Shown here: positions 5,656-20,992 of the stretch, one piece after another
Numbering within the stretch: the stretch's first letter is position 1
How the letters are laid out: every line of letters starts with the position of its first letter
Assembly: GCA_902606835.1 (NCBI GenBank)
Contig: CACLHW010000006.1
Span: forward strand, 27,501-61,303
Direction: 5' to 3'
Length of the DNA stretch: 33,803 bases
From: an uncultured Pelagibacteraceae bacterium
Lineage (GTDB): Bacteria; Pseudomonadota; Alphaproteobacteria; Pelagibacterales; Pelagibacteraceae
Made by a program: the position numbers and the translations under genes
The notes under the pieces: generated by a model
What the model was told of the DNA's origin: nothing
What the model saw: only the letters and a program-made list of their open reading frames with translations
Databases searched by the model: none

Positions 5656-6687
5656 ATGCTTAAAGGTAAAGTCTTAAAAAAAATAATATTGTCACGTCAA
5701 TCAAAGATCATTGATGTAATAAATAATTTAAATGAATCTGGACTTAGAATAGTATTATTCGTAGATGAAAAAAAAAACTTTGCAGGAATAATTGATGATG
5801 GAGATATAAGAAGAGCATTACTAAAAGGGTACAATATAAATCATAAAATTTTAAATGTTATTAATAAAAAATGTTATGTTACTAACCAAGAGTTAAACGA
5901 AGAAGATCTAGACAGGTTAATTGCTAGATTTGACAACATACCAATTGTAAAAAATAAAAAAATTTATGGACTTTATACAAAAACTAATCTGGGCAAAATA
6001 AAGGTTAAAAAAAACAAAACACATGTTGTAATTATGGCCGGGGGTTTTGGGAAGAGACTTGGTTATCTTACAAAAAATAATCCTAAAGCATTACTAAGAT
6101 ACAAATCAAAGCCACTAATACAACACATAATAGAAAATATTAATAAGCAAGGTTTTAATAATTTATATATATCAATTTTCTATCTAAAAGATTTAATAAA
6201 AAAATTTATTAAAGAAAATAATTATTTTAATTCAACAGTTAAATTTATTGAAGAAAAGATCCCCTTAGGAACTATCGGATCGTTAAAATTGATCAAAAAG
6301 GTAAGTAATAATTTTTTACTATTAAATTGTGACGTAATCTCAGCTTCAGATCTTAATGAAATGTTAAAATTCCATATTAAAAAAAAAGCTTTTTTAACAA
6401 TTGGAATTAAAAATTATAAGTACAAAAATCCTTATGGTGTTGTGATAACCAAGGGGGGTAAATTTAGATCATTCCAAGAAAAACAGGAAATAGACTTTAA
6501 TATAAATGCAGGTATTTACGCAATTAATAAGCGAGCAATAAAAATTATTAGCAATAATAATTTTAAAAACATAGAAAATTTAATTGAATATTTAAAAAAG
6601 AAAAATTATAAGATTTTAATTTTTCCAATAATTGAAAATTGGCTCGATTTAGGTCAAAATAAAAAAGTTTTAAAAAAATTTAACTAA
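5656..6687 (+). CDS. CBS-domain sugar-1-phosphate nucleotidyltransferase (PtmE-like)
   Basis: Should activate a sugar-1-phosphate with an NTP. Seen: 343 residues. A CBS pair covers about 1-115 (FAGIIDDGDIRRAL near 42-55, VPIVKN-type second repeat near 95-108). A nucleotidyltransferase domain follows from about 123, with MAGGFGKRL at 127-135 and NPKALL at 142-147. A Cys-Asp pair near residue 225 sits in LLLNCDV, the metal-binding strand. Known: this CBS-transferase fusion occurs in PtmE, the glucosamine-1-phosphate guanylyltransferase of the GDP-linked legionaminic acid route. It is the first gene of the long plus-strand cluster, and its stop is followed immediately by the TTG start of the next gene. 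Nucleotide specificity is inferred, not visible. Confidence 0.82.
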   Translation: MLKGKVLKKIILSRQSKIIDVINNLNESGLRIVLFVDEKKNFAGIIDDGDIRRALLKGYNINHKILNVINKKCYVTNQELNEEDLDRLIARFDNIPIVKNKKIYGLYTKTNLGKIKVKKNKTHVVIMAGGFGKRLGYLTKNNPKALLRYKSKPLIQHIIENINKQGFNNLYISIFYLKDLIKKFIKENNYFNSTVKFIEEKIPLGTIGSLKLIKKVSNNFLLLNCDVISASDLNEMLKFHIKKKAFLTIGIKNYKYKNPYGVVITKGGKFRSFQEKQEIDFNINAGIYAINKRAIKIISNNNFKNIENLIEYLKKKNYKILIFPIIENWLDLGQNKKVLKKFN

Positions 6688-7596
6688 TTGAAAAAAAAAA
6701 TTTTAATAATTGGGTTTGGATCAATTGGAAGAAGACATGCTAAAATATTGAGTAAATTTAGTGATATTTCAGAGATTTTTATTTTAACCAATCAAAAATG
6801 CAACGAATATTTTAAATTAAATAAATTAACTCAGATTGATAAAATTAATCCAGATTATATTTTAATTTGCTCCCGCACTTCACAACACCTAAAACATCTA
6901 AAATATGTAGAAAAAAAGTTTAAAAATAAATTAATATTGGTAGAAAAACCTCTCTTTGAAAATACAAAAAATTTTAAAATTAAAAATAATAAAGTTTTCG
7001 TAGGCTATAATTTAAGATTTCATCCAGTTATTCAATATATTAAAAAATATATTGTAAATAAAAAAATTATTTCGATCAATGCTAATTGCTATTCCTATCT
7101 TCCATTGTGGAGAAAAAATATTGTTTACCATTTATCAAACTCAGCGAAAAAATCTTATGGAGGGGGAGCGCTTTTAGAATTAAGCCATGAGATAGACTAT
7201 ATTCAATGGATATATAAAAAAATTAAAAAACTACACAATGTTAGAATAAAAAAAATATCAAATTTAAAAATTGATACTGATGATACAGCAACCATTATAG
7301 GAGAAATAGGACAAGCAAATTTTATGATCGATCTGAGTTTTTGTAGTTTAAATACAGAAAGATTAATATTTATTCATGGAAATAATTTTACATTAAAGGG
7401 AGACCTAATTAACAACACTGTTCAAATAAATAAAAATAATAAAAAAAGACTTTTGTCTTTTAATATCAATAAAGATTATACTTACAAAGCCCAGCATAAA
7501 CACCTTTTAGAAAAAAAATATTTGAATTTATGTACTTTCAAAGAAGGTGATAATTTAATGAAACTTTTAGATAAAATCAGAAATTTAAATGAATAA
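6688..7596 (+). CDS. Gfo/Idh/MocA-family oxidoreductase
   Basis: An NAD(P)-dependent sugar oxidoreductase. Seen: 302 residues, with the Rossmann motif GFGSIGRRHAK at about 8-18, CSRTSQHLKHL near 60, and the family signature EKPL near 90. A GGGALLELSHEIDY segment near 157 contains the His/Asp catalytic region. It starts at TTG, directly after the previous stop, and the TTG is followed by a run of ten A. Its end overlaps the cytidylyltransferase gene by 8 nt. Similar genes accompany PtmE/PtmB/PtmA in legionaminic-type clusters, but the exact substrate is unknown. Confidence 0.82.
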   Translation: MKKKILIIGFGSIGRRHAKILSKFSDISEIFILTNQKCNEYFKLNKLTQIDKINPDYILICSRTSQHLKHLKYVEKKFKNKLILVEKPLFENTKNFKIKNNKVFVGYNLRFHPVIQYIKKYIVNKKIISINANCYSYLPLWRKNIVYHLSNSAKKSYGGGALLELSHEIDYIQWIYKKIKKLHNVRIKKISNLKIDTDDTATIIGEIGQANFMIDLSFCSLNTERLIFIHGNNFTLKGDLINNTVQINKNNKKRLLSFNINKDYTYKAQHKHLLEKKYLNLCTFKEGDNLMKLLDKIRNLNE

Positions 7597-8287
7597 AAAA
7601 GATATAGTTTGCTTTATTTTTGCAAGAGGAAACTCACAGGGAATAAAAAATAAAAATCTCTTAAAATTTAAAAAAATGTCTTTGCTTGCTAATTCAATTT
7701 TACAATCAAAAAAATCAAAATATATAAGTAAAACTTACGTATCAACTGATAGTAAAAAAATAGCAAATGAAGCTAGAAAATATAATGCAGAGGTTCCATT
7801 TATTAGACCCAAAAGTTTAGCAAGAAATAATTCTCCAGAAATCAAGGCATGGAAACATGCTATTAATTATTTAGAAAAAATATCAAAAAAAATTCCAAAG
7901 TATATTGTATCATTACCCACAACAGCTCCGTTAAGAAACAAATTTGATATTAACAAATGTATTTTAAAAGCAGTAAAAAATAATCTAGATATTGTTTTTT
8001 CAGTAACTCCTTCAACTAGAAATCCTTATTATAATATTTTAGTAAAAAAAAATGGAAAATTACAAACAGCATCGAATCAAAAGAGAAAACTTTTTAGACG
8101 TCAAGATGCGCCAAAATGTTATGATCTTTCTACAGTATGTTATGTATTTAAAACGCATTATATTAAAAAAACTTCGAATCTATTTTCTGGCAAAACCGGT
8201 TATGTTGTAATTCCAAAAAAAAGGGCTATAGATATTGATGATTTATTTGATTACAAACTAGCAAATTATTTATCGAAAAAAAATTAA
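7589..8287 (+). CDS. Acylneuraminate cytidylyltransferase family protein (CMP-nonulosonate synthetase, PtmB/LegF-like)
   Basis: Should activate an eight- or nine-carbon 2-keto acid sugar (nonulosonate, or possibly Kdo-like) as its CMP derivative. Seen: 232 residues, the usual size for NeuA-type enzymes. The nucleotide-binding motif FARGNSQGIKNKNL lies at about 11-24, STDSKKIA near 53, RP near 74, and LPTTAPLR near 110-117. Its start overlaps the oxidoreductase gene by 8 nt. The PtmE-like and PtmA-like genes on either side suggest a legionaminic-type product. No synthase (NeuB/LegI) gene occurs in the window, so the sugar acid must be made elsewhere or differ from legionaminate. Confidence 0.85.
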   Translation: MNKKDIVCFIFARGNSQGIKNKNLLKFKKMSLLANSILQSKKSKYISKTYVSTDSKKIANEARKYNAEVPFIRPKSLARNNSPEIKAWKHAINYLEKISKKIPKYIVSLPTTAPLRNKFDINKCILKAVKNNLDIVFSVTPSTRNPYYNILVKKNGKLQTASNQKRKLFRRQDAPKCYDLSTVCYVFKTHYIKKTSNLFSGKTGYVVIPKKRAIDIDDLFDYKLANYLSKKN

Positions 8288-8296
8288 GCTAAATTT

Positions 8297-9049
8297 ATGA
8301 AACAAGTTATAGGAATTATCGGCGCATGTGGAAGAATAGGATCTTCTTTAACAGAGCAATTATTAATAGATGGTTATAAAATTATTTTAGTCGATATTAA
8401 TAAAAACAAGCTTTTAAAATTAAAAAAAAATTTTAATTCGGCAAATTTAGAAATTCTTTGTTTAGATTTAACAAAAACAAAAAATATTGATAAATTTATT
8501 AAATTCGGTTTAAAAAAATTTAAAAAAATTAATGCGGTTGTAGATTGTTCTTATCCTCAATCTGCTGGATGGGGTATAAAATTTGAAAATTTAAAAGAAA
8601 ATTTCTTAAAAGAAGATTTGTTTAACCAATTAGGTTCAAAAATAATATTATGTCAGAAATTAATTAAATATTTTTTAAAAGTAAAAGAAGGAAATCTAAT
8701 TTTGCTATCTTCAATTATGGGCGTACAATCGCCAAAATTTGAACTTTATTATAAAACTAAAATGACAAGTCCTATTGAATATTCAGCAGTTAAATCTGGA
8801 ATAATTTCAGTTACAAAATATTTGTCAAAATATTATAAAAATAAAAATATTAGAATTAATTGTATTAGCCCGGGTGGAATTAAAGATAATCAGCCAAAGT
8901 TATTTCAAAAAAAATATAGAAATGCATGTAATTTAAAAGGCTTACTTGATGGCCAAGATGTTTCAAATTTAATTTTATTTTTACTATCTGACAAAGCAAA
9001 ATATATAACTGGTCAGAATTTAATTATTGATGATGGCTGGACCTCGTAG
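8297..9049 (+). CDS. SDR-family oxidoreductase (PtmA-like)
   Basis: Seen: 250 residues of a classical short-chain dehydrogenase. The cofactor loop GACGRIGSS is at 9-17, an acidic DINK segment at 33-36 favours NAD(H), catalytic Ser lies near 139, and Tyr162 and Lys166 sit in YSAVK. INCISPGGI follows near 190 and the typical SDR ending TGQNLIIDDGW closes the protein. Known: PtmA-type SDRs neighbour PtmB and PtmE in flagellin and surface legionaminic acid clusters and are proposed to work early, in GlcN-6-P supply. The 3' end overlaps the next gene by about 20 nt, which suggests coupled translation. Confidence 0.85.
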   Translation: MKQVIGIIGACGRIGSSLTEQLLIDGYKIILVDINKNKLLKLKKNFNSANLEILCLDLTKTKNIDKFIKFGLKKFKKINAVVDCSYPQSAGWGIKFENLKENFLKEDLFNQLGSKIILCQKLIKYFLKVKEGNLILLSSIMGVQSPKFELYYKTKMTSPIEYSAVKSGIISVTKYLSKYYKNKNIRINCISPGGIKDNQPKLFQKKYRNACNLKGLLDGQDVSNLILFLLSDKAKYITGQNLIIDDGWTS

Positions 9050-10292
9050 TAAAAAAAAACTAATTCAACTCCATCCCTATAAATATATTGATTATGATTA
9101 TTTTGCTATGGAGCTAAATCATTTGCACAAAGAACCCAATATAGAAGTTGAAATTCATGATTTATCAAATTTTTTATATAGCAAAGAATTTAATGGGGTC
9201 TGGCCAACTAAAGGGTTCAAAAAAGCTATAAAATTTCGTTCGTTATTTTCTTGGTTAAGCTATTTTATAAAACTAGATAAAAAAAATACTGCCATTTATA
9301 ACTTTGTTCCTTGTGATAATTTAAAAACATTTATTATACAGCTTGTAGTTAGACTGTCCAAGATTCCAATTATAATTTATTCAGTTATAGATGTAGCTGA
9401 ACTTCCAGTTAAAAAAAATATTAAAACTCTTTTTAGAAAAATTAAATTTTATAAATTTAATTTTAAATTATATTATTATACTTTCAATTCCATTTTTTTT
9501 AGTAAATTAATAAAATTATTTAAAATAGAAAAATTATTTATAATGTGTCTAAAAAAAAATATTAAAAATAATTTTTCTAATCTAAGATATGTTCTGATAA
9601 ATAGAAAAAATTTTAATCCTAATAATATATTAGCCGTGGAGTCTCATTCAGAAGATTTTTCAAAAAGTTTAATAAAATTTAATGGTAATAAAAAAAAAGA
9701 AAAGTATATAATATATTTAGATACACCAACTCCTTACCTAGATGGAGATCAGCAAACTATTGGAAAAAAATATAAAAAAGACTTACAAATTGTAAAAAAA
9801 TGGTACAAACAATTCAATGACTTTTTTGACGATCTTGAACTTTTTTATAAAGCCAAGTTACTTGTAATACCTCACCCAAAAACAAAAGGAATAGTTAATC
9901 CTTATTTTAAAAATAGAGTTATTAATCATCAGATTGATGCGGCTGTAAAATTTATTCCACAATGCAAGTTATTGGTTACCACAGGCTCTACGGGTATTTC
10001 ACACGCAATATCCCATTACAAACCTTTTACTTTGATTTATTCGCCACTATGGAGCTTTTTATATAAAGATAATTGGCGATATAAAATCGAAATGTTTTAC
10101 AAAGCAAAACTTTTTAAAAAAACACCAATAGATATTACCTCGTATAATAAAAAAGAAATCTCTAAGAACTTTAAAATTAATAGGAAACTATACGATTTAT
10201 ATAAATACAAATATTTAACTGCAAAAAATAATCCAAACAAGGATATGCCTAATTATAAAATAATTAAGAACATTATTAACAATTATGTTTAA
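9030..10292 (+). CDS. Putative GT-B-type surface glycosyltransferase, family unassigned
   Basis: Not confidently recognised. Seen: about 420 residues, no signal peptide, and a strongly basic, hydrophobic middle (about 80-190). The C-terminal half has a VIPHPKTKG strand near 290 and VTTGSTGISHAISHYKPFTLIYS near 320-345. That arrangement resembles the donor-binding half of GT-B capsule, sialic-acid or Kdo transferases, where PHP and a STG/His segment contact the nucleotide sugar. TTG at 9027 and ATGs at 9030 and 9033 are possible starts; 9030 is chosen as the first ATG. It lies between the PtmA-like SDR (overlap) and the ABC exporter (8-nt overlap), so it is probably the transferase of the CMP-sugar made by its neighbours (inference). 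Confidence 0.6.
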   Translation: MMAGPRSKKKLIQLHPYKYIDYDYFAMELNHLHKEPNIEVEIHDLSNFLYSKEFNGVWPTKGFKKAIKFRSLFSWLSYFIKLDKKNTAIYNFVPCDNLKTFIIQLVVRLSKIPIIIYSVIDVAELPVKKNIKTLFRKIKFYKFNFKLYYYTFNSIFFSKLIKLFKIEKLFIMCLKKNIKNNFSNLRYVLINRKNFNPNNILAVESHSEDFSKSLIKFNGNKKKEKYIIYLDTPTPYLDGDQQTIGKKYKKDLQIVKKWYKQFNDFFDDLELFYKAKLLVIPHPKTKGIVNPYFKNRVINHQIDAAVKFIPQCKLLVTTGSTGISHAISHYKPFTLIYSPLWSFLYKDNWRYKIEMFYKAKLFKKTPIDITSYNKKEISKNFKINRKLYDLYKYKYLTAKNNPNKDMPNYKIIKNIINNYV

Positions 10293-12000
10293 AAAAATAA
10301 AAATTATACTATCTAAAAAACAACTAAATCATTTTTATTTTTTTATTTTTTTATCATTTGTTTCAATGATTTTAGAAACAGTGGGAATTGGGCTTATCAT
10401 TCCATTTATGCAAGTGCTAGTAGCCGATGGGCTTAACCCTCATGTAATTGAATTTTTAAATATGTTTGGAATTTATCCAACATCAAAACAAAATCTAATT
10501 TTTATTTTAATATTGGTTGTAGCTTTTGTTTACACTTTTAAAGCTTCGTTTTTAACATACGTTTCGTACGCTCTTACAAAATGGTTGGCAGATACACGTG
10601 TTTCACTTTCCAACAAACTTTATAATATATACTTAAACAAACCTTATAGTTTTCATTTAAATAATAATTCCTCAAGTTTAGTCAGAAATATTAAGGAAAT
10701 TGATCTTGTTGTATTTATTATTAAATCTTCATTTTTGCTAGTAAGTGAAATAATTGTCTTTATAGGAATTTCAGCATTTGTAATATTTTATGAACCAATT
10801 GGATCATTAATTGTTATTTCATTTTTGGGCTCAGTTGGTTATTTATTTTATAAACGTGTACAAGTTAAAGCAGAAAAATGGGGGGTTACGAGACAAATTC
10901 ACGAAGGACTCAGCTTTAAATATTTGCAAGAAGGATTTGCAGCAATAAAAGATATAAAAATTCTTCAAAGATCTAAAGAGCTTACAAAAGCTTTTACTTT
11001 AAATAATAAAATAATTAATTTATCTGAATTCAAACAAAATTTTGTAGATACACTTCCAAGACTTTGGTTAGAATGGTTAGTAGTAGTAGGTTTTGTTTTA
11101 TTAATAATTTTAATGTTATATCTTGGAAAAGAATTATCATATATTGTTCCATTGCTAGGATTGTTTGCTGCAGCTGCATTTAGGATAATGCCTTCTCTTA
11201 CAAGAATAATGAATGCGGTTCATGGCATATTGTATAATCGCCCTGTAATTGATTCTGTTTATAAAGAATTTAATGAAAGTAATTTTCATAAAGATTATAA
11301 CAACAAATCTTTAACGAAAATTTTATTAAATAGAGAGATTGTTTTAAAAAATGTTGATTTTAAGTATTCTGAAACAGGTCCATTTGTTTTAAAAAATATA
11401 AATCTCAATATTAAAAATGGGAGCACAATAGGCATTATTGGTGAAAGTGGTATTGGTAAGACAACTTTAATAAATATAATTTTGGGTCTAGTAGAACCTA
11501 CAAATGGAGGTGTATATATTGATGGAACAAATATTTCAGAAAATATTGTAAATTGGCAAAATCAAATTGGATATGTTCCTCAAAATATCTATTTAGCTGA
11601 TGATACAATTAGAAAAAATATTGCATTTGCATTGCCGGATGACAAAATAAACAATAATGCAGTAGAAAAAGCCTCAATGAATGCAAAATTAGATAATTTA
11701 ATTAAGAGCTTAAACAAAGGATTAAATACAAAAGTGGGAGAATTTGGAGATCGAATATCTGGAGGTCAAAGACAACGTATAGCAATAGCAAGAGCTCTAT
11801 ATTCAGATCCAAAGGTATTAATATTGGATGAATGCACCAACTCCTTAGATTTAGAAACAGAAAAACAGATAATTAATGAAGTAAATTCTTTTAAAGGAAA
11901 AAAAACCATTATTATGATTACACATCGCTTATCAACTTTAGAAAATTGTGATCAAATATATAAAATAGACAAAGAAGGTTTAAAACTTGAAAAGGAGTAA
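10285..12000 (+). CDS. ABC exporter with fused membrane and ATPase domains (flippase type)
   Basis: Probably flips a lipid-linked oligosaccharide or glycolipid across the inner membrane, like MsbA or PglK. Seen: 571 residues. The N-terminal membrane domain (about 1-310) contains roughly six hydrophobic helices. The ATPase domain has Walker A GESGIGKTT near 386-394, Q-loop around VPQN near 430, signature SGGQRQRIAIARAL near 491-504, Walker B VLILDE near 511-516, and ITHR near 546. It is a half-transporter that must dimerise. It overlaps the preceding gene by 8 nt. No Wzx, Wzy or Wzm/Wzt genes are in the window, so this is the only visible export route for the cluster. Confidence 0.93.
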   Translation: MFKKIKIILSKKQLNHFYFFIFLSFVSMILETVGIGLIIPFMQVLVADGLNPHVIEFLNMFGIYPTSKQNLIFILILVVAFVYTFKASFLTYVSYALTKWLADTRVSLSNKLYNIYLNKPYSFHLNNNSSSLVRNIKEIDLVVFIIKSSFLLVSEIIVFIGISAFVIFYEPIGSLIVISFLGSVGYLFYKRVQVKAEKWGVTRQIHEGLSFKYLQEGFAAIKDIKILQRSKELTKAFTLNNKIINLSEFKQNFVDTLPRLWLEWLVVVGFVLLIILMLYLGKELSYIVPLLGLFAAAAFRIMPSLTRIMNAVHGILYNRPVIDSVYKEFNESNFHKDYNNKSLTKILLNREIVLKNVDFKYSETGPFVLKNINLNIKNGSTIGIIGESGIGKTTLINIILGLVEPTNGGVYIDGTNISENIVNWQNQIGYVPQNIYLADDTIRKNIAFALPDDKINNNAVEKASMNAKLDNLIKSLNKGLNTKVGEFGDRISGGQRQRIAIARALYSDPKVLILDECTNSLDLETEKQIINEVNSFKGKKTIIMITHRLSTLENCDQIYKIDKEGLKLEKE

Positions 12001-12015
12001 AAAAAAATAGATTTT

Positions 12016-13011
12016 ATGAAAATACTTGTAACAGGAGCTTGCGGTTTTATCGGATCACATCTAGTTGAAAAATTAGTTAAACAAAATCACTATGTTAAAG
12101 CTTTTTCATTTTATAATGCAAGAGGCTCAAATGGATGGTTAGATAATATAGATAATAAAATAATTAAGGATACTAATATAATTTCTGGAGATATTAGAGA
12201 TCATGATTTTTTAAACAAACATACAAAAAATATAGACATAATTTTTCATTTAGCAGCATTAATAGGAATACCTTATTCTTATCACGCTGTTAAAAGTTAT
12301 ATTGATACAAATGCAACTGGAACTTATAACATTTTAAATGCAGCAAAAGCTAACAACATTTCAAAAACTATTATTACTTCAACAAGTGAAGTTTACGGAA
12401 CAGCACAAAAAATTCCAATTTTAGAAAATCATCCACTTAGCGCGCAATCCCCATATGCTGCAAGCAAAATTGCAGCAGATCAGCTAGCACTATCTTTTTA
12501 CAGATCATTTAAGCTTCCAGTTACTATAATTAGACCATTCAATACTTTTGGCCCAAGACAATCTGCTAGAGCAATAATTCCAACTATAATCACACAAATT
12601 TTACAAAAAAAAAATATAGTAAAATTAGGAAACTTAACTCCCACTAGAGATTTCACTTATATTGAAGATACAGTAGACGCTTTTTACAATACAATTAAGG
12701 CAAATAAAATTGCAGGAGAAGTTATTAATATTGGAAATAATTTTGAAATTTCAATTAAAGGTATTTTAGAAATTTTCAAAAAAGATTTTGGTTATAATTT
12801 TAAAGTTAGGACCGATAAAAAACGCTTAAGAACAAAAAGTAGCGAAGTTTATAGATTATTGGCTTCAAATAAGAAGGCAAAAAAAATTTTAAAATGGCTT
12901 CCTAAATACAGCGCTGAAAAAGGATTTAAAGAAGGATTAAAAAAAACAATTAACTGGCTTGGTCAAACCAAAAATCTTAAATATTATAAGTCTGATATAT
13001 ACAATATCTAA
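12016..13011 (+). CDS. legB: NDP-sugar 4,6-dehydratase, LegB type
   Basis: Expected to convert GDP-GlcNAc (or UDP-GlcNAc) to the 4-keto-6-deoxy sugar. Seen: 331 residues of an extended SDR. GACGFIGSH is at 7-15. A characteristic YNARGSNGWLDN stretch near 35-46 matches the LegB signature region (YNSFNSWGWLD in Campylobacter). STSEVYG lies near 122, with the catalytic Tyr and Lys in SPYAASK near 145-151, and RPFNTFGPRQSARA near 175. The next gene, 10 nt downstream, is the matching LegC-type aminotransferase. The family call rests on recalled signature similarity, not a search. Runs of A10 occur inside the gene (12605-12614). Confidence 0.82.
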   Translation: MKILVTGACGFIGSHLVEKLVKQNHYVKAFSFYNARGSNGWLDNIDNKIIKDTNIISGDIRDHDFLNKHTKNIDIIFHLAALIGIPYSYHAVKSYIDTNATGTYNILNAAKANNISKTIITSTSEVYGTAQKIPILENHPLSAQSPYAASKIAADQLALSFYRSFKLPVTIIRPFNTFGPRQSARAIIPTIITQILQKKNIVKLGNLTPTRDFTYIEDTVDAFYNTIKANKIAGEVINIGNNFEISIKGILEIFKKDFGYNFKVRTDKKRLRTKSSEVYRLLASNKKAKKILKWLPKYSAEKGFKEGLKKTINWLGQTKNLKYYKSDIYNI

Positions 13012-13021
13012 AAAGTTTTAA

Positions 13022-14185
13022 ATGAACAATATTTCATATTCTAATTTAGCAAAAGAATTAATAGATCTTGTTAAAAAAAATAAAAATCTTAATAATTCAA
13101 TACATGAACCATATTTTGATAAAAATGAGAAATTTTTTTTATTAAAATGCATTAATTCTAGTTACGTTTCAACAGTTGGACCATTTGTTAAAAAATTTGA
13201 AAATCTAATAAAAAAATTTACCAAAGCTAAGTATGTTATAGCTACAGTTAATGGAACATCAGCGCTACATATATCAATGATAGTTTCAAACATTTCAAAA
13301 AATGATGAAGTATTAATTCCCGCATTAAATTATATTGGGAGTTCCAATGCAGCAACATATTGTGGTGCCATTCCACATTTTATTGATTGTAAAACCGATT
13401 CATTTGAAATAGATACAAAAAAATTAAAAAACTATTTATCAAAAATTTGCAAAATTAATAAATCTTATTGTATTAACAAAAAAACTAAGCGCATCATTAA
13501 GGCAATTATACCAACACATATACTTGGTCAAGTTTCAGATATGGATTCACTAATGAAAATATCAAAGGAGTTTAAATTAAAAATAGTTGAAGACTCAGCA
13601 GAATGCGTTGGCAGCTATTATAAAAAAAAGCATGCGGGTACAATCGCGCCGATTGGAGTTCTAAGTTTTAATGGAAATAAAATTATTACTACTGGAGGCG
13701 GAGGGGCAATTTTAACAAACGATAAAAAAATTGCAGAACATGCAAGACACTTAACTCAAATTGGGAAAATAAAACATCAATGGAGATATAATTACAATAC
13801 TATTGGCTTTAACTATAGAATGCCAAATATAAATGCAGCTATAGGATGTGCGCAAATAAAAAAAATTAAATACTTAATAAAAAAAAAAAGAAATATTTTT
13901 CTTTATTATTACAAGAATTTAAAAAAATATAACAATCTTTCAATTGTTAAAGAAGCAAAAAATTGCAAAAGTAATTATTGGTTAAATGCTTTAATATTAA
14001 AAAAATCAAACCAAAAAGTTTTAGATAATATTTGTAATAAAACACATAAAAAAGGAGTTCATCTAAGACCTTTGTGGCAGTTAATTAATGAAATATTACC
14101 TTATAAAAAAAATCCCAAAATGAACTTGTCTAATTCTAAAGATATTAATAAAAGAACATTGTGTTTACCAAGCAGCCCCAAATAA
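13022..14185 (+). CDS. legC: PLP-dependent sugar 4-aminotransferase, LegC type
   Basis: Should aminate C4 of the 4-keto-6-deoxy sugar made by the LegB-type enzyme, using glutamate and PLP. Seen: 387 residues of the DegT/DnrJ/EryC1 family. NGTSALH at 78-84 binds phosphate, EDSAE at 190-194 carries the Asp that pairs with the PLP nitrogen, and Lys220 in FNGNKIITTGGGGA forms the Schiff base. NYRMPNINAAIGCAQ follows near 275. The N-terminal segment, about 45 residues before the STVGPFV box, is typical of LegC-like enzymes. The 14-kb neighbourhood lacks LegH, LegG and LegI, so the next steps of legionaminate synthesis are not visible here. Confidence 0.85.
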   Translation: MNNISYSNLAKELIDLVKKNKNLNNSIHEPYFDKNEKFFLLKCINSSYVSTVGPFVKKFENLIKKFTKAKYVIATVNGTSALHISMIVSNISKNDEVLIPALNYIGSSNAATYCGAIPHFIDCKTDSFEIDTKKLKNYLSKICKINKSYCINKKTKRIIKAIIPTHILGQVSDMDSLMKISKEFKLKIVEDSAECVGSYYKKKHAGTIAPIGVLSFNGNKIITTGGGGAILTNDKKIAEHARHLTQIGKIKHQWRYNYNTIGFNYRMPNINAAIGCAQIKKIKYLIKKKRNIFLYYYKNLKKYNNLSIVKEAKNCKSNYWLNALILKKSNQKVLDNICNKTHKKGVHLRPLWQLINEILPYKKNPKMNLSNSKDINKRTLCLPSSPK

Positions 14186-14191
14186 AAAAAT

Positions 14192-14953
14192 ATGAAAAAA
14201 ATAAATCACCATTATAATGAGGCTTTAAAAAAATATATTCATTTTTTAAAAAAAAACTCTCTTTATTCTAAAAAGAAAAAATTTTTTTATGAAAATAATA
14301 TAGAAAAAATGTCTAACTGGACAAATGTAAATTTTAATAAAACTCTTAGATGGTACAAAAAAATCAAACGCTCTAACAAGGCTAAAGTAAAAACAATTCA
14401 TTTAGAAAAAATGAAAAAATGGACTTACGATAAAAAAAAAGGAGTTATAAAACATAAAAGCGGTGAATTTTTTCATATTGAAGGCAAGAGAATTGTAAAA
14501 TCTGATAGGGAAGTTAGCAGTTGGGATCAACCTTTTATAAAACAAGTAGGATATAACGGAGGAATTATTGGTTTAGTTAGATCAAATATAAAAGGTATAC
14601 CGCATTATTTAATAGACGCAAAGTATGAACCAGGAAATTACAATCAAATTCAGCTTAGCCCGTCACTTCAAGCAACATACTCAAATCTTAATAGAGTTCA
14701 TTTAGGATCTAAACCAAAAGTAGTAAGAAAATACTTTTCAAAAAATTATACAACCATAAGAAAATTTTGGGTAACGGAAGATGGTGGAAGATTATATTTA
14801 AAAAGAAACCTTCATTGGATTATTCAGTACGATGGAAAAATTAATTTACCAGGAAAAACTTTTAAGTGGATGACTTTATGGGAAATAGATAAATTTATTA
14901 AAATTGGTTCTCTTGTAGGCCCACACTTGAGATCAATATTATCATTAATATAA
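14192..14953 (+). CDS. Single-domain NDP-hexose 2,3-dehydratase (EvaA/TylX3-like)
   Basis: Seen: 253 residues with strong family signatures: HKSGEFFHIEG at 88-98, WDQPFI at 111-116, YEPGN at 145-149, and QLSPSLQATYSNLNRVH at 154-170, followed by a VGPHLRSILSLI end. Known: EvaA-type enzymes act on NDP-4-keto-6-deoxyglucose, removing the C2 hydroxyl to start 2,6-dideoxysugar synthesis, and are about 450-480 residues built from two tandem Nudix-like domains. This protein is half that size and carries one complete copy of the motifs, so it would act as a homodimer of single domains (inference). The next genes, a Gfo/Idh reductase and a WecE-like aminotransferase, fit the following steps. The CDP-glucose genes rfbG and rfbF are 3 kb downstream. 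Confidence 0.8.
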   Translation: MKKINHHYNEALKKYIHFLKKNSLYSKKKKFFYENNIEKMSNWTNVNFNKTLRWYKKIKRSNKAKVKTIHLEKMKKWTYDKKKGVIKHKSGEFFHIEGKRIVKSDREVSSWDQPFIKQVGYNGGIIGLVRSNIKGIPHYLIDAKYEPGNYNQIQLSPSLQATYSNLNRVHLGSKPKVVRKYFSKNYTTIRKFWVTEDGGRLYLKRNLHWIIQYDGKINLPGKTFKWMTLWEIDKFIKIGSLVGPHLRSILSLI

Positions 14954-14955
14954 TA

Positions 14956-15882
14956 ATGAATAAAAAAACAATCGGTATAATTGGAACCGGAAAACATTTT
15001 GATGAAAAAATTTATCCTATTTTGTTAAAATCTAATTTTTTTAAGATATCCGGCGCATTGAGAAAAAAAAGAAGTAATTTTAAAAATATAAAAATTTTAA
15101 AAGAAAGAGATTTTTTTAAAAAAAAATTTGATTTTGTTTATATATCTTGTCCAAATAAATTTCATGAAAATTATATTATAAAATCACTAAGGTCTGGGTC
15201 TCACGTTATTTGCGAAAAACCGTTCATAGTAAGAAAAAAAAATATGAAAAAAATTATACAATTAGCTAAAAGAAATAAAAAACTAATTTTCGAAGCATTT
15301 ATGTATCTTTATCACCCAGCCTACAAATATGTTGAAAAATTATTTAGAGATCAAACATATGGAAAATTTAGATATTTAATATCAAATTTTAGATATCCAG
15401 CCCTTAACAGAAAAAACAATAGGTACAAAAAAGGTGAAGGAGATGGGTTTTTTAATGATGCAGCAACTTACCCTCTTTCTTTAGAGAATTATATATTTAA
15501 GAATGAGAATAAAAAAGCTTTTAAATTATTTACACAAAAAATAAAAAGTAATGTGGATTTACGTGGAAATATTTTTATAAATTCTTCAAAAGGTAAAAGA
15601 TTTTATTTTTGGGGTGAGGGACAAAACTATTCTAATAATTTAGAAATTTTTTTTGATAAAGCATCCATTTTTATAAATAAGTTTTTTAGTAAAAAGAAAG
15701 ATGAAAAAATATATGTTAAAATTTATACAAAAACTCAAAAAAAGATAATTATAGAAAAAGTAGATCAATTTCAAAAAATGTTTTTAACTATACAAAAAAA
15801 TTATTTCAAAGAATCATTTCAAAAGTTTCATATAAATATGATAAAGAATCAATTAAATTTATTATTAAAATATAATTCATAA
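14956..15882 (+). CDS. Gfo/Idh/MocA-family oxidoreductase, likely NDP-sugar 3-ketoreductase
   Basis: Seen: 308 residues. A Rossmann start GIIGTGKHF at 7-15 is followed by the family signature ICEKPF at 85-90 and a FNDAATYP segment at about 166-173. That segment corresponds to the GGGALxDxGCYP active-site stretch, with Tyr172 as candidate proton donor. The Gly-rich part is altered to EGDGFFNDAATYP. Known: in 2-deoxysugar pathways a Gfo/Idh enzyme reduces the 3,4-diketo product of the 2,3-dehydratase. Direct adjacency to the dehydratase (2-nt gap) and to an aminotransferase (no gap) makes that role likely. Its own substrate is inferred only from context. Confidence 0.78.
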   Translation: MNKKTIGIIGTGKHFDEKIYPILLKSNFFKISGALRKKRSNFKNIKILKERDFFKKKFDFVYISCPNKFHENYIIKSLRSGSHVICEKPFIVRKKNMKKIIQLAKRNKKLIFEAFMYLYHPAYKYVEKLFRDQTYGKFRYLISNFRYPALNRKNNRYKKGEGDGFFNDAATYPLSLENYIFKNENKKAFKLFTQKIKSNVDLRGNIFINSSKGKRFYFWGEGQNYSNNLEIFFDKASIFINKFFSKKKDEKIYVKIYTKTQKKIIIEKVDQFQKMFLTIQKNYFKESFQKFHINMIKNQLNLLLKYNS

Positions 15883-17031
15883 ATGAAAAAAATTTTATTC
15901 AATACGCCGCTCCAAAAAAAGAAATATTTTGATAATGTAAAAAAATTACTAAATTCAAAGAAGTCTTTACATGGACCAGGTAGAAATATTTTCCAAATAA
16001 AAAAAGATCTCAAGAAACAATATGGTTTTAATCATGTTCACTTAACAAATAGCTGCACAGCTGCAATGGAAATGTGTGCATTGATGATAAATTTAAAAAA
16101 AAATGACGAGGTTCTTATGCCATCGTACAATTATAATACTACAGCATCAAGTTTTGTAAGAACTGGCTGCAAAGTTAGATATTGCGATATAGACAAAAAA
16201 AATTTAATGCCAACTTTTGATCATATAAAACGCAATGTTAACAAAAAGACAAAAGTTATAGTGATAATTCATATGCAAGGCCTGCCTGTAGACTATTTAG
16301 GAGATTTGCAAAATTACTGTAAATCAAAAAAAATAATTTTAATTGAAGATGCGGCACCTGCACTAGGATCTTACGTAAAAAATAAACCTGCCGGCAGCTA
16401 TGGAGATTTTGCATGTTTTTCTTTTCATGAAACAAAAAATTATCAAAGCGGAATGGGTGGATTGTTAGTTGTAAATAATAAAAAATTTAAAAGAAAATCT
16501 GATTTAGTTTTTGATAAAGGTACCGATAGAACTTTGGTGGTTTCTGATCCAAATTATCATAAAAAATATTATTCATGGGTGGAAATTGGTTCATGTTTCA
16601 GGTTACCAGAACTTAATGCAAGTTTTTTACAACCCCAAATAAAAGATATTGATGGAGTAATTAAATATAGATCTAATTTATATAAAAGATATTTAAAAAA
16701 TTTTAATGGTTGGTTAACCGACGAGTTTACAATATGTAATAAAATGACACATAAATATAAATATAATTATCATGCATTTACAATTATTTTAAAAAGAAGA
16801 GAAAGAGAGAAGTTTTTAAAGTATTTAAAAAAAAATAATATAATAGCGTTTATAAGTTTTGAAGCGCTACATCTTTCAAAAATAGGAAAAAATTTTTTAA
16901 CTAAAAAGACGAAACTTGAAAATACTGATGAGATTATAAAAAAAATAGTTAGGCTTCCTATGCACAATCAATTAACTATTAAAGAAGTAGATTTTATTTG
17001 TAAAAAAGTTAAGGAATATTTTAACTCTTAA
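15883..17031 (+). CDS. PLP-dependent sugar aminotransferase (WecE/RffA-like)
   Basis: Seen: 382 residues closely following the WecE pattern: TNSCTAAMEM at 55-64, VLMPSYNYNTTA at 77-88, IEDAA at 154-158, Schiff-base Lys185 in FSFHETKNY at 179-187, DKGTDR near 210, and a C-terminal RLPMHNQL. Known: WecE makes dTDP-4-amino-4,6-dideoxygalactose from the 4-keto sugar. Here the neighbours (2,3-dehydratase, 3-ketoreductase, CDP-glucose 4,6-dehydratase) suggest that the substrate is instead a CDP-linked 2,6-dideoxy-4-keto hexose (inference). It starts at the base after the previous stop and shows no truncation. Confidence 0.85.
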   Translation: MKKILFNTPLQKKKYFDNVKKLLNSKKSLHGPGRNIFQIKKDLKKQYGFNHVHLTNSCTAAMEMCALMINLKKNDEVLMPSYNYNTTASSFVRTGCKVRYCDIDKKNLMPTFDHIKRNVNKKTKVIVIIHMQGLPVDYLGDLQNYCKSKKIILIEDAAPALGSYVKNKPAGSYGDFACFSFHETKNYQSGMGGLLVVNNKKFKRKSDLVFDKGTDRTLVVSDPNYHKKYYSWVEIGSCFRLPELNASFLQPQIKDIDGVIKYRSNLYKRYLKNFNGWLTDEFTICNKMTHKYKYNYHAFTIILKRREREKFLKYLKKNNIIAFISFEALHLSKIGKNFLTKKTKLENTDEIIKKIVRLPMHNQLTIKEVDFICKKVKEYFNS

Positions 17032-17039
17032 TTTAAAAA

Positions 17040-18317
17040 ATGAAATTTTTGTTAATTTCTTATAGCGAATTCGATGGTGTTGGACAGCATGTAGCCAACT
17101 TAAATACAAATTTAGAAAAGTTAGGGCATAAATCAAAAGTAATTTTATTACATAAGTTAAATGATACAGAAAATAATATAATTAAAATCAAAAGATCATT
17201 TTTATCGAGAATATTTTTTTTCTTTTTAGAGTTTTTAAAAAAAGATTTAAAAGGTTTGTTCAGTTTTGGAAATAGCACAATTAAATACAATTCTATTAAA
17301 AGATATATAGATGAATCCGAAGTAATAATAATATACTCGATGCATAAAATATTATCATTTAATATGTTGGAAAAAATATTTAAAACTAATAAAGTTATTT
17401 ATTTACGCCCGTTAGATTGGGAATTTGCTACAGGCGGATGTCATTTAAATATAACAGATAAAGGTGACATATGTAATAAATTTCATACTAGTTGTGATAA
17501 ATGTCCGCAATTAAATTTTTTCAATTTTTTTAATCTTTCAAAAAAAATTTTTAATAAAAAACAAAAAGTTCTTGAAAAATATCATCCCAAAATATTTGTT
17601 GAAAATAATTTTACTAAGGATGTTTATAATACTTCTTCAATAACAAAAAACATGAAAATAGAAACAATCTTTCTAGGAGTAAATAAAGAAAGAATTAAGT
17701 TTATTTCAAAAGAAGATGCAAGAAAAAATCTTAATCTAGATAAAAGTGACAAGATAATATTATTTGGCACATTTAATATGGATGCACCTCATAAAGGTGG
17801 CAGAATTATTGAAAGCATTCTTAAAAATTTTATTTCAAATTTATATAAAAATAAAGAATCTAAAATAGATTTTAGTAAAATAAAATTAATAACCTTTGGA
17901 AGAAAAAACACTTTTACATTTAGTATACCAGAAATAAAATGGGTTCATTTTGGCGAAATTAATTCAGATCAAAAATTAAATTTTTTGTATAGATCCGCAG
18001 ATGTTTTTGCCTCACCTTCAACAGGATGTAATGGGCCCCACATAGTCCTTGAAGCCTTAGCGAACGATCTTCCAGTAGTAGCATTTGATCAGGGAGTTGC
18101 CCAAGATTCAGTTATTAACGGTGTAAATGGTTATTTGGTTCCTTGTTTTAGCAAAGAAAATTTTTCTAATTCTATTTTTAAAGCCCTATTTTTAAATGAA
18201 CTAGTCGATCCTAAAAATGAAAATGAAAAGTTAAAATCTATTTTTAACTATACAAATGAAGCTAAAATGATAATACAAAATGCTTCAGAAGATTTAAAAA
18301 ATAAAACTTATAATTAA
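17040..18317 (+). CDS. Family 4 glycosyltransferase (GT-B)
   Basis: A retaining GT-B transferase, probably adding one sugar to the surface glycan on the cytoplasmic face. Seen: 425 residues. The N-terminal acceptor domain begins FLLISYSEFDGVGQHV with the glycine-rich loop near 12-17. A WEFATGGCHLN segment near 128-138 and cysteines in a CxxC-PQL pattern near 151-160 match a common GT4 subgroup with a small cysteine cluster. The donor domain has ILFGTFN near 240, ADVFASPSTGCNGPHIVLEAL near 320-340 (donor-phosphate site), and PVVAFDQG after it. The donor sugar is unknown. It is preceded by the WecE-like gene (8 nt) and followed by rfbG (1 nt). Confidence 0.88.
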   Translation: MKFLLISYSEFDGVGQHVANLNTNLEKLGHKSKVILLHKLNDTENNIIKIKRSFLSRIFFFFLEFLKKDLKGLFSFGNSTIKYNSIKRYIDESEVIIIYSMHKILSFNMLEKIFKTNKVIYLRPLDWEFATGGCHLNITDKGDICNKFHTSCDKCPQLNFFNFFNLSKKIFNKKQKVLEKYHPKIFVENNFTKDVYNTSSITKNMKIETIFLGVNKERIKFISKEDARKNLNLDKSDKIILFGTFNMDAPHKGGRIIESILKNFISNLYKNKESKIDFSKIKLITFGRKNTFTFSIPEIKWVHFGEINSDQKLNFLYRSADVFASPSTGCNGPHIVLEALANDLPVVAFDQGVAQDSVINGVNGYLVPCFSKENFSNSIFKALFLNELVDPKNENEKLKSIFNYTNEAKMIIQNASEDLKNKTYN

Positions 18318-18318
18318 A

Positions 18319-19401
18319 ATGCTTTTAAAGAATTTTTTTAATAAGAAAACTGTAATAGTTACAGGACATACAGGGTTTAAAGGATCATGGATTTCTATTT
18401 GGCTGAAAACCTTGGGAGCTAGAGTAATAGGTTTATCCATAAGCGAACCTAAAGGTCAATCTCATTATAAAGCCATAAACTTAAAAACAAAGATAAAGAG
18501 TATAAAAATAGATATAAGAGATTTAAAAAAATTAAAAAAAGTATTTAAAAAATATCAACCCGATTATGTTTTTCACTTGGCCGCACAAGCTTTGGTTAAA
18601 AAATCTTATATTGATCCAATTTATACATGGAGCACAAATACACTTGGGACATTAAATGTTTTAGAATCTATGAGGTATATAAAAAAAAAATGCGTAGCAG
18701 TAATTATAACAAGTGATAAAAGTTATAAAAATCTTGAAATAAAAAGAGGTTATAGAGAAGATGATATTTTGGGTGGAAAAGATCCTTACAGTGCTTCAAA
18801 AGGATCTGCCGAGTTAGCTATACAATCTCATATAAGTTCATTCTTTCCAATTAAAAAAACTAAAGTTTTAATTGGAGTGGCAAGAGCCGGCAATGTTATA
18901 GGAGGAGGGGATTGGTCTGAAAATCGCTTAATTCCTGATTGCATAAAATCTTGGTCAAAAAATAAAAAAGTTATATTACGGAATCCTAACTCAACTAGAC
19001 CATGGCAGCATGTGTTAGAGGCGGTAGGAGCTTATCTAATTTTAGCAATAAACCTTAAAAAAAATAAAAAATTACATGGAGAAGTGTTTAACTTTGGCCC
19101 CAAAGATAAAAAAAATTATAAGGTTATATTTGTAGTTAAATTAATGAGGAAATTTTGGAGTAAAGTGAGATGGAAAATATTAAATAAAAAGAAAAATGTT
19201 TTTTATGAATCTACTTTATTAAAGTTAAATGTTAGCAAGGCTAAAAAAAGGCTTAAATGGAAAAGTATTTTAACAATTAATCAAACTATAAAGATGGTAA
19301 TAGAATGGTATAAAAATTATTATATGAGTTCAAAAAAAATATATAAAACCTCTTTAAGCCAAATTAAATTGTATGAAAAACTTTTAGAGAAAAAAAATTA
19401 A
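18319..19401 (+). CDS. rfbG: CDP-glucose 4,6-dehydratase
   Basis: Converts CDP-glucose to CDP-4-keto-6-deoxyglucose with bound NAD. Seen: 360 residues, the usual length. VTGHTGFKGSW at about 14-24 is the RfbG version of the cofactor loop, HLAAQALVKKSY lies near 92-103, SDKSY near 136 and the catalytic Tyr/Lys in YSASKGSAEL near 157-166. RPWQHVLEAVGAYL is near 232. rfbF follows after 2 nt, so CDP-glucose supply and dehydration are coupled. Known: the RfbH/AscC 3-dehydrase route to 3,6-dideoxyhexoses usually follows, but no such gene is present here. An A10 run (18681-18690) is inside the gene. Confidence 0.94.
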   Translation: MLLKNFFNKKTVIVTGHTGFKGSWISIWLKTLGARVIGLSISEPKGQSHYKAINLKTKIKSIKIDIRDLKKLKKVFKKYQPDYVFHLAAQALVKKSYIDPIYTWSTNTLGTLNVLESMRYIKKKCVAVIITSDKSYKNLEIKRGYREDDILGGKDPYSASKGSAELAIQSHISSFFPIKKTKVLIGVARAGNVIGGGDWSENRLIPDCIKSWSKNKKVILRNPNSTRPWQHVLEAVGAYLILAINLKKNKKLHGEVFNFGPKDKKNYKVIFVVKLMRKFWSKVRWKILNKKKNVFYESTLLKLNVSKAKKRLKWKSILTINQTIKMVIEWYKNYYMSSKKIYKTSLSQIKLYEKLLEKKN

Positions 19402-19403
19402 AA

Positions 19404-20096
19404 ATGAAAGTTGTTTTATTAGCTGGCGGTTTTGGAACAAGGTTGTCCGAATATACCAAAACAGTGCCAAAGCCCATGATAAGTGTTGGCGGCGAACCAA
19501 TTCTATTACATATAATGAAACATTATGCCAAGTATGGTTTTAAGGATTTTTATATCGCTCTGGGTTACAAAGGAAAAATGATAAAAAAATTTTTCAAGAA
19601 AAAAAAATTCAAGTGGAATATTAATTTAATTGAAACTGGGAAAAACACAATGACTGGTGGAAGATTAAAAAGATTAAAAAAGTATTTGGGCAACGAAACA
19701 TTTATGATGACATATGGAGATGGGTTATCCAATGTAAATTTAAAAAAATTATTAAAATTTCATAAAAAAAATAAAAAGTTAGTTACATTAACTGCTGTTA
19801 GACCTCCAGCTAGGTTTGGTGCTTTAAAACTTATTGGTCAACACGTAGGTTACTTTAAAGAAAAATCAAAGCTCGATGAAGGTTGGATAAACGGCGGCTT
19901 TTTTGTTATGGAACCAAAATTTTTAAAATTTATTAAAAATGACAAAACATATTTAGAAAGAGAGCCTTTAGAAGATGTGAGCAAAAAAAAACAGCTTACT
20001 GCTTTTAGACACGAGGGTTTTTGGCAATGTATGGATACGAAGAGAGATAAAGACTTGCTAAATAAAATTATAAATAGCAAAAAAATCAAATTTTGA
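19404..20096 (+). CDS. rfbF: Glucose-1-phosphate cytidylyltransferase
   Basis: Makes CDP-glucose from CTP and glucose-1-phosphate, the entry to CDP-deoxyhexoses. Seen: 230 residues, a little shorter than the roughly 257 of enteric RfbF. LAGGFGTRLSEYTKTVPKPM spans 6-25 and contains the pyrophosphorylase motif plus the RfbF-specific SEYT insertion. IETGKNTMTGGRLKR is near 76-90, a MTYGDG metal site near 105-110, and WINGGFFVMEP near 160-170. The missing length is at the C-terminus; all core motifs are intact. Its TGA overlaps the TTG start of the following SDR by 4 nt. The order rfbG-rfbF is reversed compared with the enteric rfbF-rfbG order. Confidence 0.94.
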   Translation: MKVVLLAGGFGTRLSEYTKTVPKPMISVGGEPILLHIMKHYAKYGFKDFYIALGYKGKMIKKFFKKKKFKWNINLIETGKNTMTGGRLKRLKKYLGNETFMMTYGDGLSNVNLKKLLKFHKKNKKLVTLTAVRPPARFGALKLIGQHVGYFKEKSKLDEGWINGGFFVMEPKFLKFIKNDKTYLEREPLEDVSKKKQLTAFRHEGFWQCMDTKRDKDLLNKIINSKKIKF

Positions 20097-20992
20097 AATC
20101 TAAAAATAAAATATTAATTGTTGGCGGTACTGGTTTTATTGGGTACCACTTAGCAAAAAAATGTTTATCAAAGGGTTGGTTAGTTACCAGTATATCTACA
20201 AAACATGCAAAAAAAATAAGATTTTTACCAAAAGTAAAATATTTAATTTGTGACATAACTAATAAAAAATTATTAAAAAAAAAAATAAAAAAAGATTTTA
20301 ATTATGTTGTAAATCTCGGTGGTTATGTTGACCATTCACATAAAAAGAAAACTTTTCAAAGTCATTATAAAGGATGTTTGAATCTAACTGAAATTTTTTT
20401 AAAAAATCCCCCTCGTGCATTTGTTCAAATGGGAAGTAGTGTTGAATATGGTAGCCTAAAATCTCCACAAAAAGAATTTGGAAAATGTAATCCAAAGTCA
20501 ATTTATGGAAAAGCAAAGTTATTGACCACAAATCATTTAGTTAAACTTTATAAAAAAAAAAAATTTCCAAGTACTATTTTAAGATTGTATTTAGCTTACG
20601 GAGCAAAACAAGACTTAAATCGATTTCTTCCGATCATTATTAATGGTTGTTTAAAAAATAAAAAATTTCCTTGTTCCAAAGGTAATCAATTAAGAGATTT
20701 TGTTCATGTAACTGATGTTGTGGAAGCTATAATTAAATCTCTAACGAATAAAAAAGCTAAGGGACAAATTTTTAATATTGGATCTGGTAAGCCGCAAAAA
20801 CTTATAAACATTATTAAATATGTAAGAAAAATTTCAAAAGGAGGCTATCCTCAATTTGGAAAAATTAAACTAAGAAAAGATGAGATTTTAAAAATTTATC
20901 CAAACATTAAAAAAGTAAAAAATTTTATTAACTGGAAACCAAAAATATCTTTTAGAAAAGGTATAAAAAATACAATTAGGTATTATAAATGA
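20093..20992 (+). CDS. NAD-dependent epimerase/reductase of the extended SDR family, probably acting on a CDP-deoxy sugar
   Basis: Seen: 299 residues from a TTG start that overlaps the rfbF stop. The cofactor loop VGGTGFIGYH is at 10-19, NLGGYVDH near 82, a QMGSSVEYGS strand near 118-127, and catalytic YGKAK near 143-147. RDFVHVTDVVEA follows near 203. Known: RfbJ-type SDRs next to rfbFG reduce the 4-keto group of CDP-4-keto-deoxy sugars. Tight linkage to rfbF supports that or an epimerase role. It has two long A-tracts (A11 at 20275-20285, A12 at 20552-20563). The downstream GT2 gene overlaps its end by 4 nt. Confidence 0.8.
   Translation: MKSKNKILIVGGTGFIGYHLAKKCLSKGWLVTSISTKHAKKIRFLPKVKYLICDITNKKLLKKKIKKDFNYVVNLGGYVDHSHKKKTFQSHYKGCLNLTEIFLKNPPRAFVQMGSSVEYGSLKSPQKEFGKCNPKSIYGKAKLLTTNHLVKLYKKKKFPSTILRLYLAYGAKQDLNRFLPIIINGCLKNKKFPCSKGNQLRDFVHVTDVVEAIIKSLTNKKAKGQIFNIGSGKPQKLINIIKYVRKISKGGYPQFGKIKLRKDEILKIYPNIKKVKNFINWKPKISFRKGIKNTIRYYK

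Follow-up and report, generated by a model that had tools for sequence, protein, structure and literature searches.

A single-domain relative of EvaA-type NDP-hexose 2,3-dehydratases in a SAR11-type genome carries the motif sets of both halves of the doubled enzymes

Background

According to the sections on EvaA in PMC8987622, this protein is the only well-characterised 2,3-dehydratase, mutation of either E139 or E190 abolishes its activity, and its second pocket (pocket B) is described as an inactive leftover. The pocket-B mutants are named E352 and D353 in the same sections (PMC8987622); in the EvaA PDB sequence residue 352 is V by count, D353 being the one aligned with E139, and the published numbering deserves a check. 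The Pfam family, PF03559, has been listed in a table as one that 'in majority of the cases exists as a single domain' (table entry in PMC12210691), which may merely mean that other domain types are missing from these proteins. Among open-licence papers, no prior description of single-domain PF03559 members was found.

A trans-acting mode of nucleotide recognition is known from the dimeric Nudix enzyme Bd3179, in which the base is held by R37', E38' and G115' (loop L8') of the partner subunit, and the opposite monomer accounts for 46% of the ligand surface that is buried (structural part of PMC4629899).

The window analysed here is a stretch of 33,803 nucleotides from an uncultured Pelagibacteraceae bacterium (GCA_902606835.1, contig CACLHW010000006.1). 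It holds a single-domain PF03559 gene together with genes for CDP-glucose enzymes. The CDP-3,6-dideoxyhexose pathways, which lead to abequose, paratose and tyvelose, start with RfbF and RfbG, followed by RfbH.

Results and discussion

A complete gene with one domain

The gene at 14192-14953 (+ strand) encodes a protein of 253 aa with N-terminal helices (residues 8-61) and exactly one stretch matching PF03559 (residues 50-252 against profile positions 3-202/203, E 6e-51, Pfam), at a score of 173 bits against a curated cut-off of 25, while a scan of the protein against NCBIfam gave no match at E 0.01. The opposite strand contains stops throughout, so that the frame is read on the + strand only. 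EvaA (471 aa) aligns twice to the window protein, with 87 bits over EvaA residues 43-245 and 58 bits over 262-459, the N half being the better match. With its one domain, the window protein lacks the EvaA-type tandem duplication, in which pocket A is active and pocket B is not. An earlier note on this DNA had described a half-length protein with one set of motifs and had set it against the duplicated domain of EvaA-type enzymes; both statements hold, and the three motifs that it quoted are all found.

The note had also called both neighbours intact and the gene no truncation. The LegC-type aminotransferase gene that precedes it (13022-14185, over its NCBIfam cut-off) ends 6 bases upstream, and the Gfo/Idh/MocA gene (14956-15882, + strand, over Pfam cut-offs) starts after a gap of 2 bases; both are indeed intact. 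In pairwise comparison with four relatives (L006, L019, L021 and L022), dN/dS is 0.09-0.26, which means that the gene is under purifying selection and is not a decaying fragment. Similar lengths and organisation recur across many independent assemblies, and the window protein falls in a different clan from the halves of doubled SAR11 proteins (see below). Some SAR11 relatives have doubled versions, but nothing else that would favour a truncation, a pseudogene or an assembly artefact of a doubled gene was found, and such an origin is hardly credible.

Distribution and the question of a partner

Single-domain (S) relatives occur in seven phyla: a scan with a single-domain alignment gave 49 loci in as many named genomes, and four IMG/VR contigs carry one as well. 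With taxa assigned by record title, the 49 loci comprise 23 Pelagibacteraceae, 4 other Alphaproteobacteria, 11 Gammaproteobacteria and 6 Actinomycetota, as well as one each from Gemmatimonadota, Spirochaetota, Campylobacterota (Helicobacteraceae), Bacillota (Syntrophomonadaceae) and Poseidoniales. Every one of these loci has one PF03559 domain, and all 47 members of alignment A3 match the family. Most records are MAGs or single cells, which carries a risk of misbinning for lone records; isolates are included as well (L034, L052, L055 and L065). The S proteins make up a real and widespread branch of PF03559, which, judging by open-licence papers, appears to be undescribed.

Motif-independent searches with the family model gave four single-domain genes among 148 relatives (the own genome, G013, G104 and G050), as well as three that are doubled and a fragment lying at the end of a contig. 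The 385 genomes of the class added one doubled gene, one single gene and one weak match below the cut-off, and the 398 genomes of the phylum had no PF03559 match besides the own genome. Six of the 217 Actinomycetota besides the centre were matched, all with doubled genes, and three of the 239 Gammaproteobacteria besides the centre (a single gene, a doubled one and a divergent single one). Apart from the centres, nothing matched in the archaeal phylum (116 genomes) or in the phylum of G899 (121 genomes). Left out of the counts were a doubled gene cut short beside transposases (L122), a match below the Pfam cut-off (L014) and three second views (L107, L108 and L110) of loci already included (L102, L103 and L104).

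A half-length protein might require a second PF03559 half-protein as an obligate heterodimer partner, a possibility that the earlier note had raised against its own proposal. No such copy is present in the own genome, where the gene is the one PF03559 match; at 965 kb this genome is only 78% complete, which leaves some room for a partner. The S protein is, however, the sole match in 48 of the 49 genomes, including the complete chromosome of a Catenovulum isolate (L052, exactly one match), and the one exception (G909) additionally encodes a doubled protein, which makes an obligate partner very improbable.

On two of the viral contigs (L016 and L017) a Gfo-type gene lies directly 3' of the S gene, and the L017 contig (88 kb) also encodes a terminase (PF03237, E 3e-15); on the other two (L068 and L070) a C-methyltransferase gene lies directly upstream. 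Among 50,697 GenBank phages there was no match to the window protein or to a viral copy, and neither the window protein nor L013, each used as a single query, gave a match when viral contigs were scanned. The T4-type capsid profile PF07068 matched none of the four viral records, but it also matched none of the control genomes.

Motif sets of the two halves

The alignment compared 57 S domains with 20 N-terminal halves (A) and 20 C-terminal halves (B) of doubled proteins, EvaA included. The dipeptide R106-E107 (14507-14512, +) is found at the aligned columns in 56/57 S domains and in all 20 B halves, whereas it is found there in none of the 20 A halves, three of which (EvaA, L106 and L124) have an RE outside the aligned columns, adjacent to W111. 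The reverse holds for the EPG[ND] motif (E146-P-G-N149 in the window protein, 14627-14638, +), present in 57/57 S domains, 19/20 A halves and no B half, and for K204 (57/57, 20/20 and 0/20), while H170 (14699-14701, +) is kept in 56/57 S domains, 20/20 A halves and 2/20 B halves. Between predicted strands 186-195 and 205-213 lies the loop E196-D-G-G-R200 (14777-14791, +), with G199/R200 typical of B halves: R200 occurs in 20/20 B halves, 3/20 A halves and 56/57 S domains, where the conservation of GGR is partly circular because the S-locus scan pattern contained GGRL (RE was in no pattern of the scan). E196 itself is shared more evenly (S 56/57, A 19/20, B 15/20). In fact, 56 of the 57 S domains carry both the A-type and the B-type motif sets.

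The halves of the doubled enzymes thus appear, from the alignment, to hold complementary motif sets, both of which are held by S. The loss of GGR from A halves is incomplete (R200 in 3/20), and all 20 sampled copies of the half that the literature treats as an inactive leftover retain RE and R200. When a 50% threshold is applied, 21 columns unite S with A to the exclusion of B and 5 unite it with B to the exclusion of A; L117 and L008 are in the residue table and were left out of this column count. Loss of active-site residues, which the earlier note had named, together with lack of activity, as refuting its proposal, was looked for as well, and both catalytic glutamates of EvaA pocket A are kept, E146 being aligned to E139 and E196 to E190.

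The S exception at each motif position short of 57/57 is L117, a divergent single PF03559 protein from a gammaproteobacterial genome (L117:1483-2118, 42 bits), which keeps EPGN and lacks RE and the E196 equivalent. It is probably something other than an S enzyme, maybe a non-dehydratase relative.

Predicted fold and a composite active site

The AF2 model of the window protein (pLDDT 92.6, pTM 0.88) matches EvaA residues 11-246 with a Foldseek E-value of 4e-14 and a VIA Z of 17.6 over 221 residues (rmsd 3.5), which gives the window protein a predicted EvaA-like fold. The next-best fold matches are Nudix enzymes of the NudK and ADP-ribose pyrophosphatase types (VIA Z about 10), while a search of PDB sequences with the S profile (hmmsearch) found EvaA only. 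The Nudix box has the form Gx5Ex7REUxEExGU. It is absent from the window protein, the translation of which has no EE pair, and hydrolase chemistry is therefore not expected.

By analogy, the trans-acting RE dipeptide and glycine loop of Nudix enzymes suggest that S proteins form homodimers with composite active sites. E146 (of EPGN) and E196 would act in cis, while the N-terminal beta-hairpin of the partner with R106-E107, a proposed nucleotide-recognition element, and its G199-R200 loop would reach in and hold the nucleotide. NudK and NudF have REV and REI in their N-terminal domains, and S proteins have REV. The spacing from RE to the next strand differs, however (about 8 versus 17 residues), and profile alignment (hhalign) of the S family with NudK and NudF gave no significant alignment and did not map R106-E107 onto the trans R-E, so that residue homology between the two is not established. 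If RE and GGR act in trans, this would explain why EPGN was lost from one half and RE/GGR from the other: after doubling with fusion only pocket A would have stayed active, and with pocket B silenced, half B would have been free to lose EPGN, H170 and K204, and half A to lose RE/GGR.

Ancestral or secondarily single

A tree of 97 domains contains three clans, with SH-aLRT/UFBoot support of 91/99 for S, 93/98 for A and 95/99 for B. Since A and B are separate clans, the doubled proteins of SAR11 and of actinobacteria appear to share one duplication. Derivation of the window-type S proteins from SAR11 A halves was rejected by the AU test (p 6.7e-5), which rules out that the window gene is a recent truncation, or half, of a SAR11 doubled gene. 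Placement of all S with the SAR11 A halves (p 0.447) or with the SAR11 B halves (p 0.298) was allowed, and since these constrained trees (c1 and c2) come from shortened searches, the two alternatives may fit even better. The AU trees left out L117, L008 and both L123 halves; they supersede an earlier AU test with fast tree searches, in which three constraints gave p 0.031, 0.346 and 0.0015.

These placements bear on the possibility that an early doubled enzyme, the A half of which still had RE and GGR, lost its other half, which would give a protein that works alike without being ancestral. Both placements allowed by the AU test are compatible with such a loss, as is the closer mean identity of S to A (0.32) than to B (0.25). 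It requires one event more than a protein that was never doubled, though, and since S combines the RE/GGR of B with the EPGN-type residues of A, the loss must predate the decay of A; an origin of the window-type S from the SAR11 A halves is in any case rejected. We consider this secondary loss rather unlikely. Motif parsimony favours, and does not prove, that S is ancestral. The earlier note, which had suggested an ancestral undoubled homodimer and a phylogeny of single domains against each half, is thus borne out in part: the gene is complete, under selection and undoubled, and no second half-length copy turned up, while indirect support comes from the motif distribution, which fits an ancestor with both motif sets, and from the closest folds other than EvaA, which are domain-swapped homodimers with elements acting in trans. 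On these grounds S may be an ancestral and active homodimer, although the trees also allow the early loss of a half.

The sugar module

The genes downstream of the 2,3-dehydratase gene hint at its substrate. The Gfo/Idh/MocA oxidoreductase at 14956-15882 is a predicted NDP-sugar 3-ketoreductase, its best solved-structure match being 3rbv (E 7e-19), the sugar 3-ketoreductase KijD10. It is followed by a DegT-family protein (15883-17031, +), a predicted C4 aminotransferase closest to dTDP-4-amino-4,6-dideoxygalactose transaminases in NCBIfam (313 bits, under the equivalog cut-off of 375), and by a putative glycosyltransferase (17040-18317, +), which was named by reading the sequence, not from a family match, and is kept with the module in close SAR11 relatives. 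Next come a CDP-glucose 4,6-dehydratase (18319-19401, +; TIGR02622, 445 bits, cut-off 278), a glucose-1-phosphate cytidylyltransferase-like protein (19404-20096, +; TIGR02623, 292 bits, just under the cut-off of 300) and an SDR/epimerase family protein (20093-20992, +; PF01370, no equivalog over cut-off), a candidate NDP-4-keto-sugar reductase.

Judging by the CDP-glucose enzymes at 18319-20096, the sugar is probably CDP-linked, and the most economical reading, by analogy with described pathways, is a 2,6-dideoxy- or 4-amino-2,4,6-trideoxyhexose module that would be CDP-linked here and dTDP-linked elsewhere. The combination of a 2,3-dehydratase, a 3-ketoreductase-like protein and CDP-glucose enzymes in a SAR11-type genome makes a CDP-2,6-dideoxyhexose route possible; the pathway sections of the review PMC8987622 describe none.

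Directly upstream, at 5656-14185, lie genes resembling a legionaminic-acid-type module (a CBS-domain nucleotidylyltransferase, a CMP-sugar synthetase-like protein, an SDR, and LegB-type and LegC-type proteins), of which LegB and LegC are named by NCBIfam profile and the others by reading of the translations.

Similar partners are found in the relatives. After merging of identical proteins (49 genome loci to 45), a Gfo/Idh/MocA gene lies within two ORFs of the S gene at 39 of the 45 loci, across phyla, a DegT aminotransferase gene at 20 and both at 19. The best solved-structure match of the Gfo protein of Glaciecola is again 3rbv (E 1e-32), as it is for the partner of a doubled enzyme from Streptomyces. 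In the Glaciecola locus (L034), RmlB, RmlA and a WecE-type aminotransferase, all over cut-off, accompany the S gene, whereas L021 resembles the window: its CDP-glucose 4,6-dehydratase scores over cut-off and its glucose-1-phosphate cytidylyltransferase-like protein falls just short. In L035 the RmlB- and RmlA-like proteins also fall just short of cut-off; with them are RmlC-like and RmlD-like proteins and, directly upstream of the S gene, a sugar 3-C-methyltransferase that matches solved enzymes of this kind.

Two further arrangements were observed. A sugar formyltransferase gene lies between those of RmlA and the aminotransferase in Glaciecola pallidula (L034:5938-6861), which suggests a formamido-2,4,6-trideoxyhexose, and in the Poseidoniales archaeon AG-422-I18 (L044:6603-8621) the S domain follows a DegT aminotransferase within one fused frame of 672 aa.

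An NDP-sugar-binding protein with other catalysis (e.g. epimerisation or 3,4-keto-isomerisation), or an inactive relative with a regulatory role, would have to be placed in this same setting. Single-domain members are not known to have been assayed, and the nucleotide in the window is probably CDP, not dTDP, both of which leave room for such a function; both glutamates essential in EvaA are kept, however, and the neighbours are enzymes acting before and after 2,3-dehydration, so that another function is quite improbable.

Following these results, we infer that the window gene encodes a complete, active and undoubled NDP-4-keto-6-deoxyhexose 2,3-dehydratase, which would work as a homodimer with composite sites and the doubling and fusion of which would have led to the EvaA type, a reading that we regard as rather probable on the combined grounds of sequence, conservation, clans, neighbours and predicted fold. 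As in EvaA, it would take the C2 hydroxyl off NDP-4-keto-6-deoxyglucose to give a 3,4-diketo-2,6-dideoxysugar, after which C3 would be reduced by the KijD10-like enzyme encoded next and C4 aminated by the product of the WecE-like gene that follows. A more far-reaching version, in which S proteins are the surviving ancestral homodimers, half B of the fused and half-silenced EvaA-type enzymes is no dead remnant and supplies RE/GGR in trans to pocket A, and the SAR11 lineage switched to a CDP-sugar and a CDP-2,6-dideoxyhexose route, is offered tentatively, as something that could well be wrong in one part or another.

The undoubled family offers a natural comparison that shows which residues each half of the doubled enzymes has retained, and makes both the proposed composite nature of the active site and its partition by domain duplication directly testable. 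It also extends 2,6-dideoxysugar biosynthesis beyond the antibiotic clusters of actinomycetes, since marine SAR11, an archaeon and one or more phage contigs carry such genes, and a CDP-linked 2,6-dideoxysugar route is suggested as well.

Comparison with known systems

The CDP-3,6-dideoxyhexose pathways have their first two steps in common with the window module (glucose-1-phosphate cytidylyltransferase and CDP-glucose 4,6-dehydratase). No RfbH was found over cut-off among the eight window ORFs scanned, and the module has a 2,3-dehydratase in place of the 3-dehydratase, so that the oxygen expected to be removed is the one at C2, not the one at C3.

The dimeric Nudix NDP-sugar hydrolases (the GDP-mannose hydrolase NudK and the ADP-ribose pyrophosphatase NudF of E. 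coli, and Bdellovibrio Bd3179) likewise combine an N-terminal beta domain with a Nudix-type domain, at about 10% identity to the window protein.

EvaA and the other two-domain dTDP-4-keto-6-deoxyglucose 2,3-dehydratases (TylX3, OleV, Gra27, SpnO and UrdS) are closest: they belong to the same Pfam family, have both catalytic glutamates and the predicted fold of window protein residues 22-253, and are encoded with the same kinds of partner genes (a 3-ketoreductase, and also an aminotransferase or a C3-methyltransferase). The window protein differs from them in having one domain, which carries the motif sets of both A and B halves, and in being encoded in a surface-polysaccharide-type cluster, probably within a CDP-glucose pathway, instead of in an antibiotic cluster.
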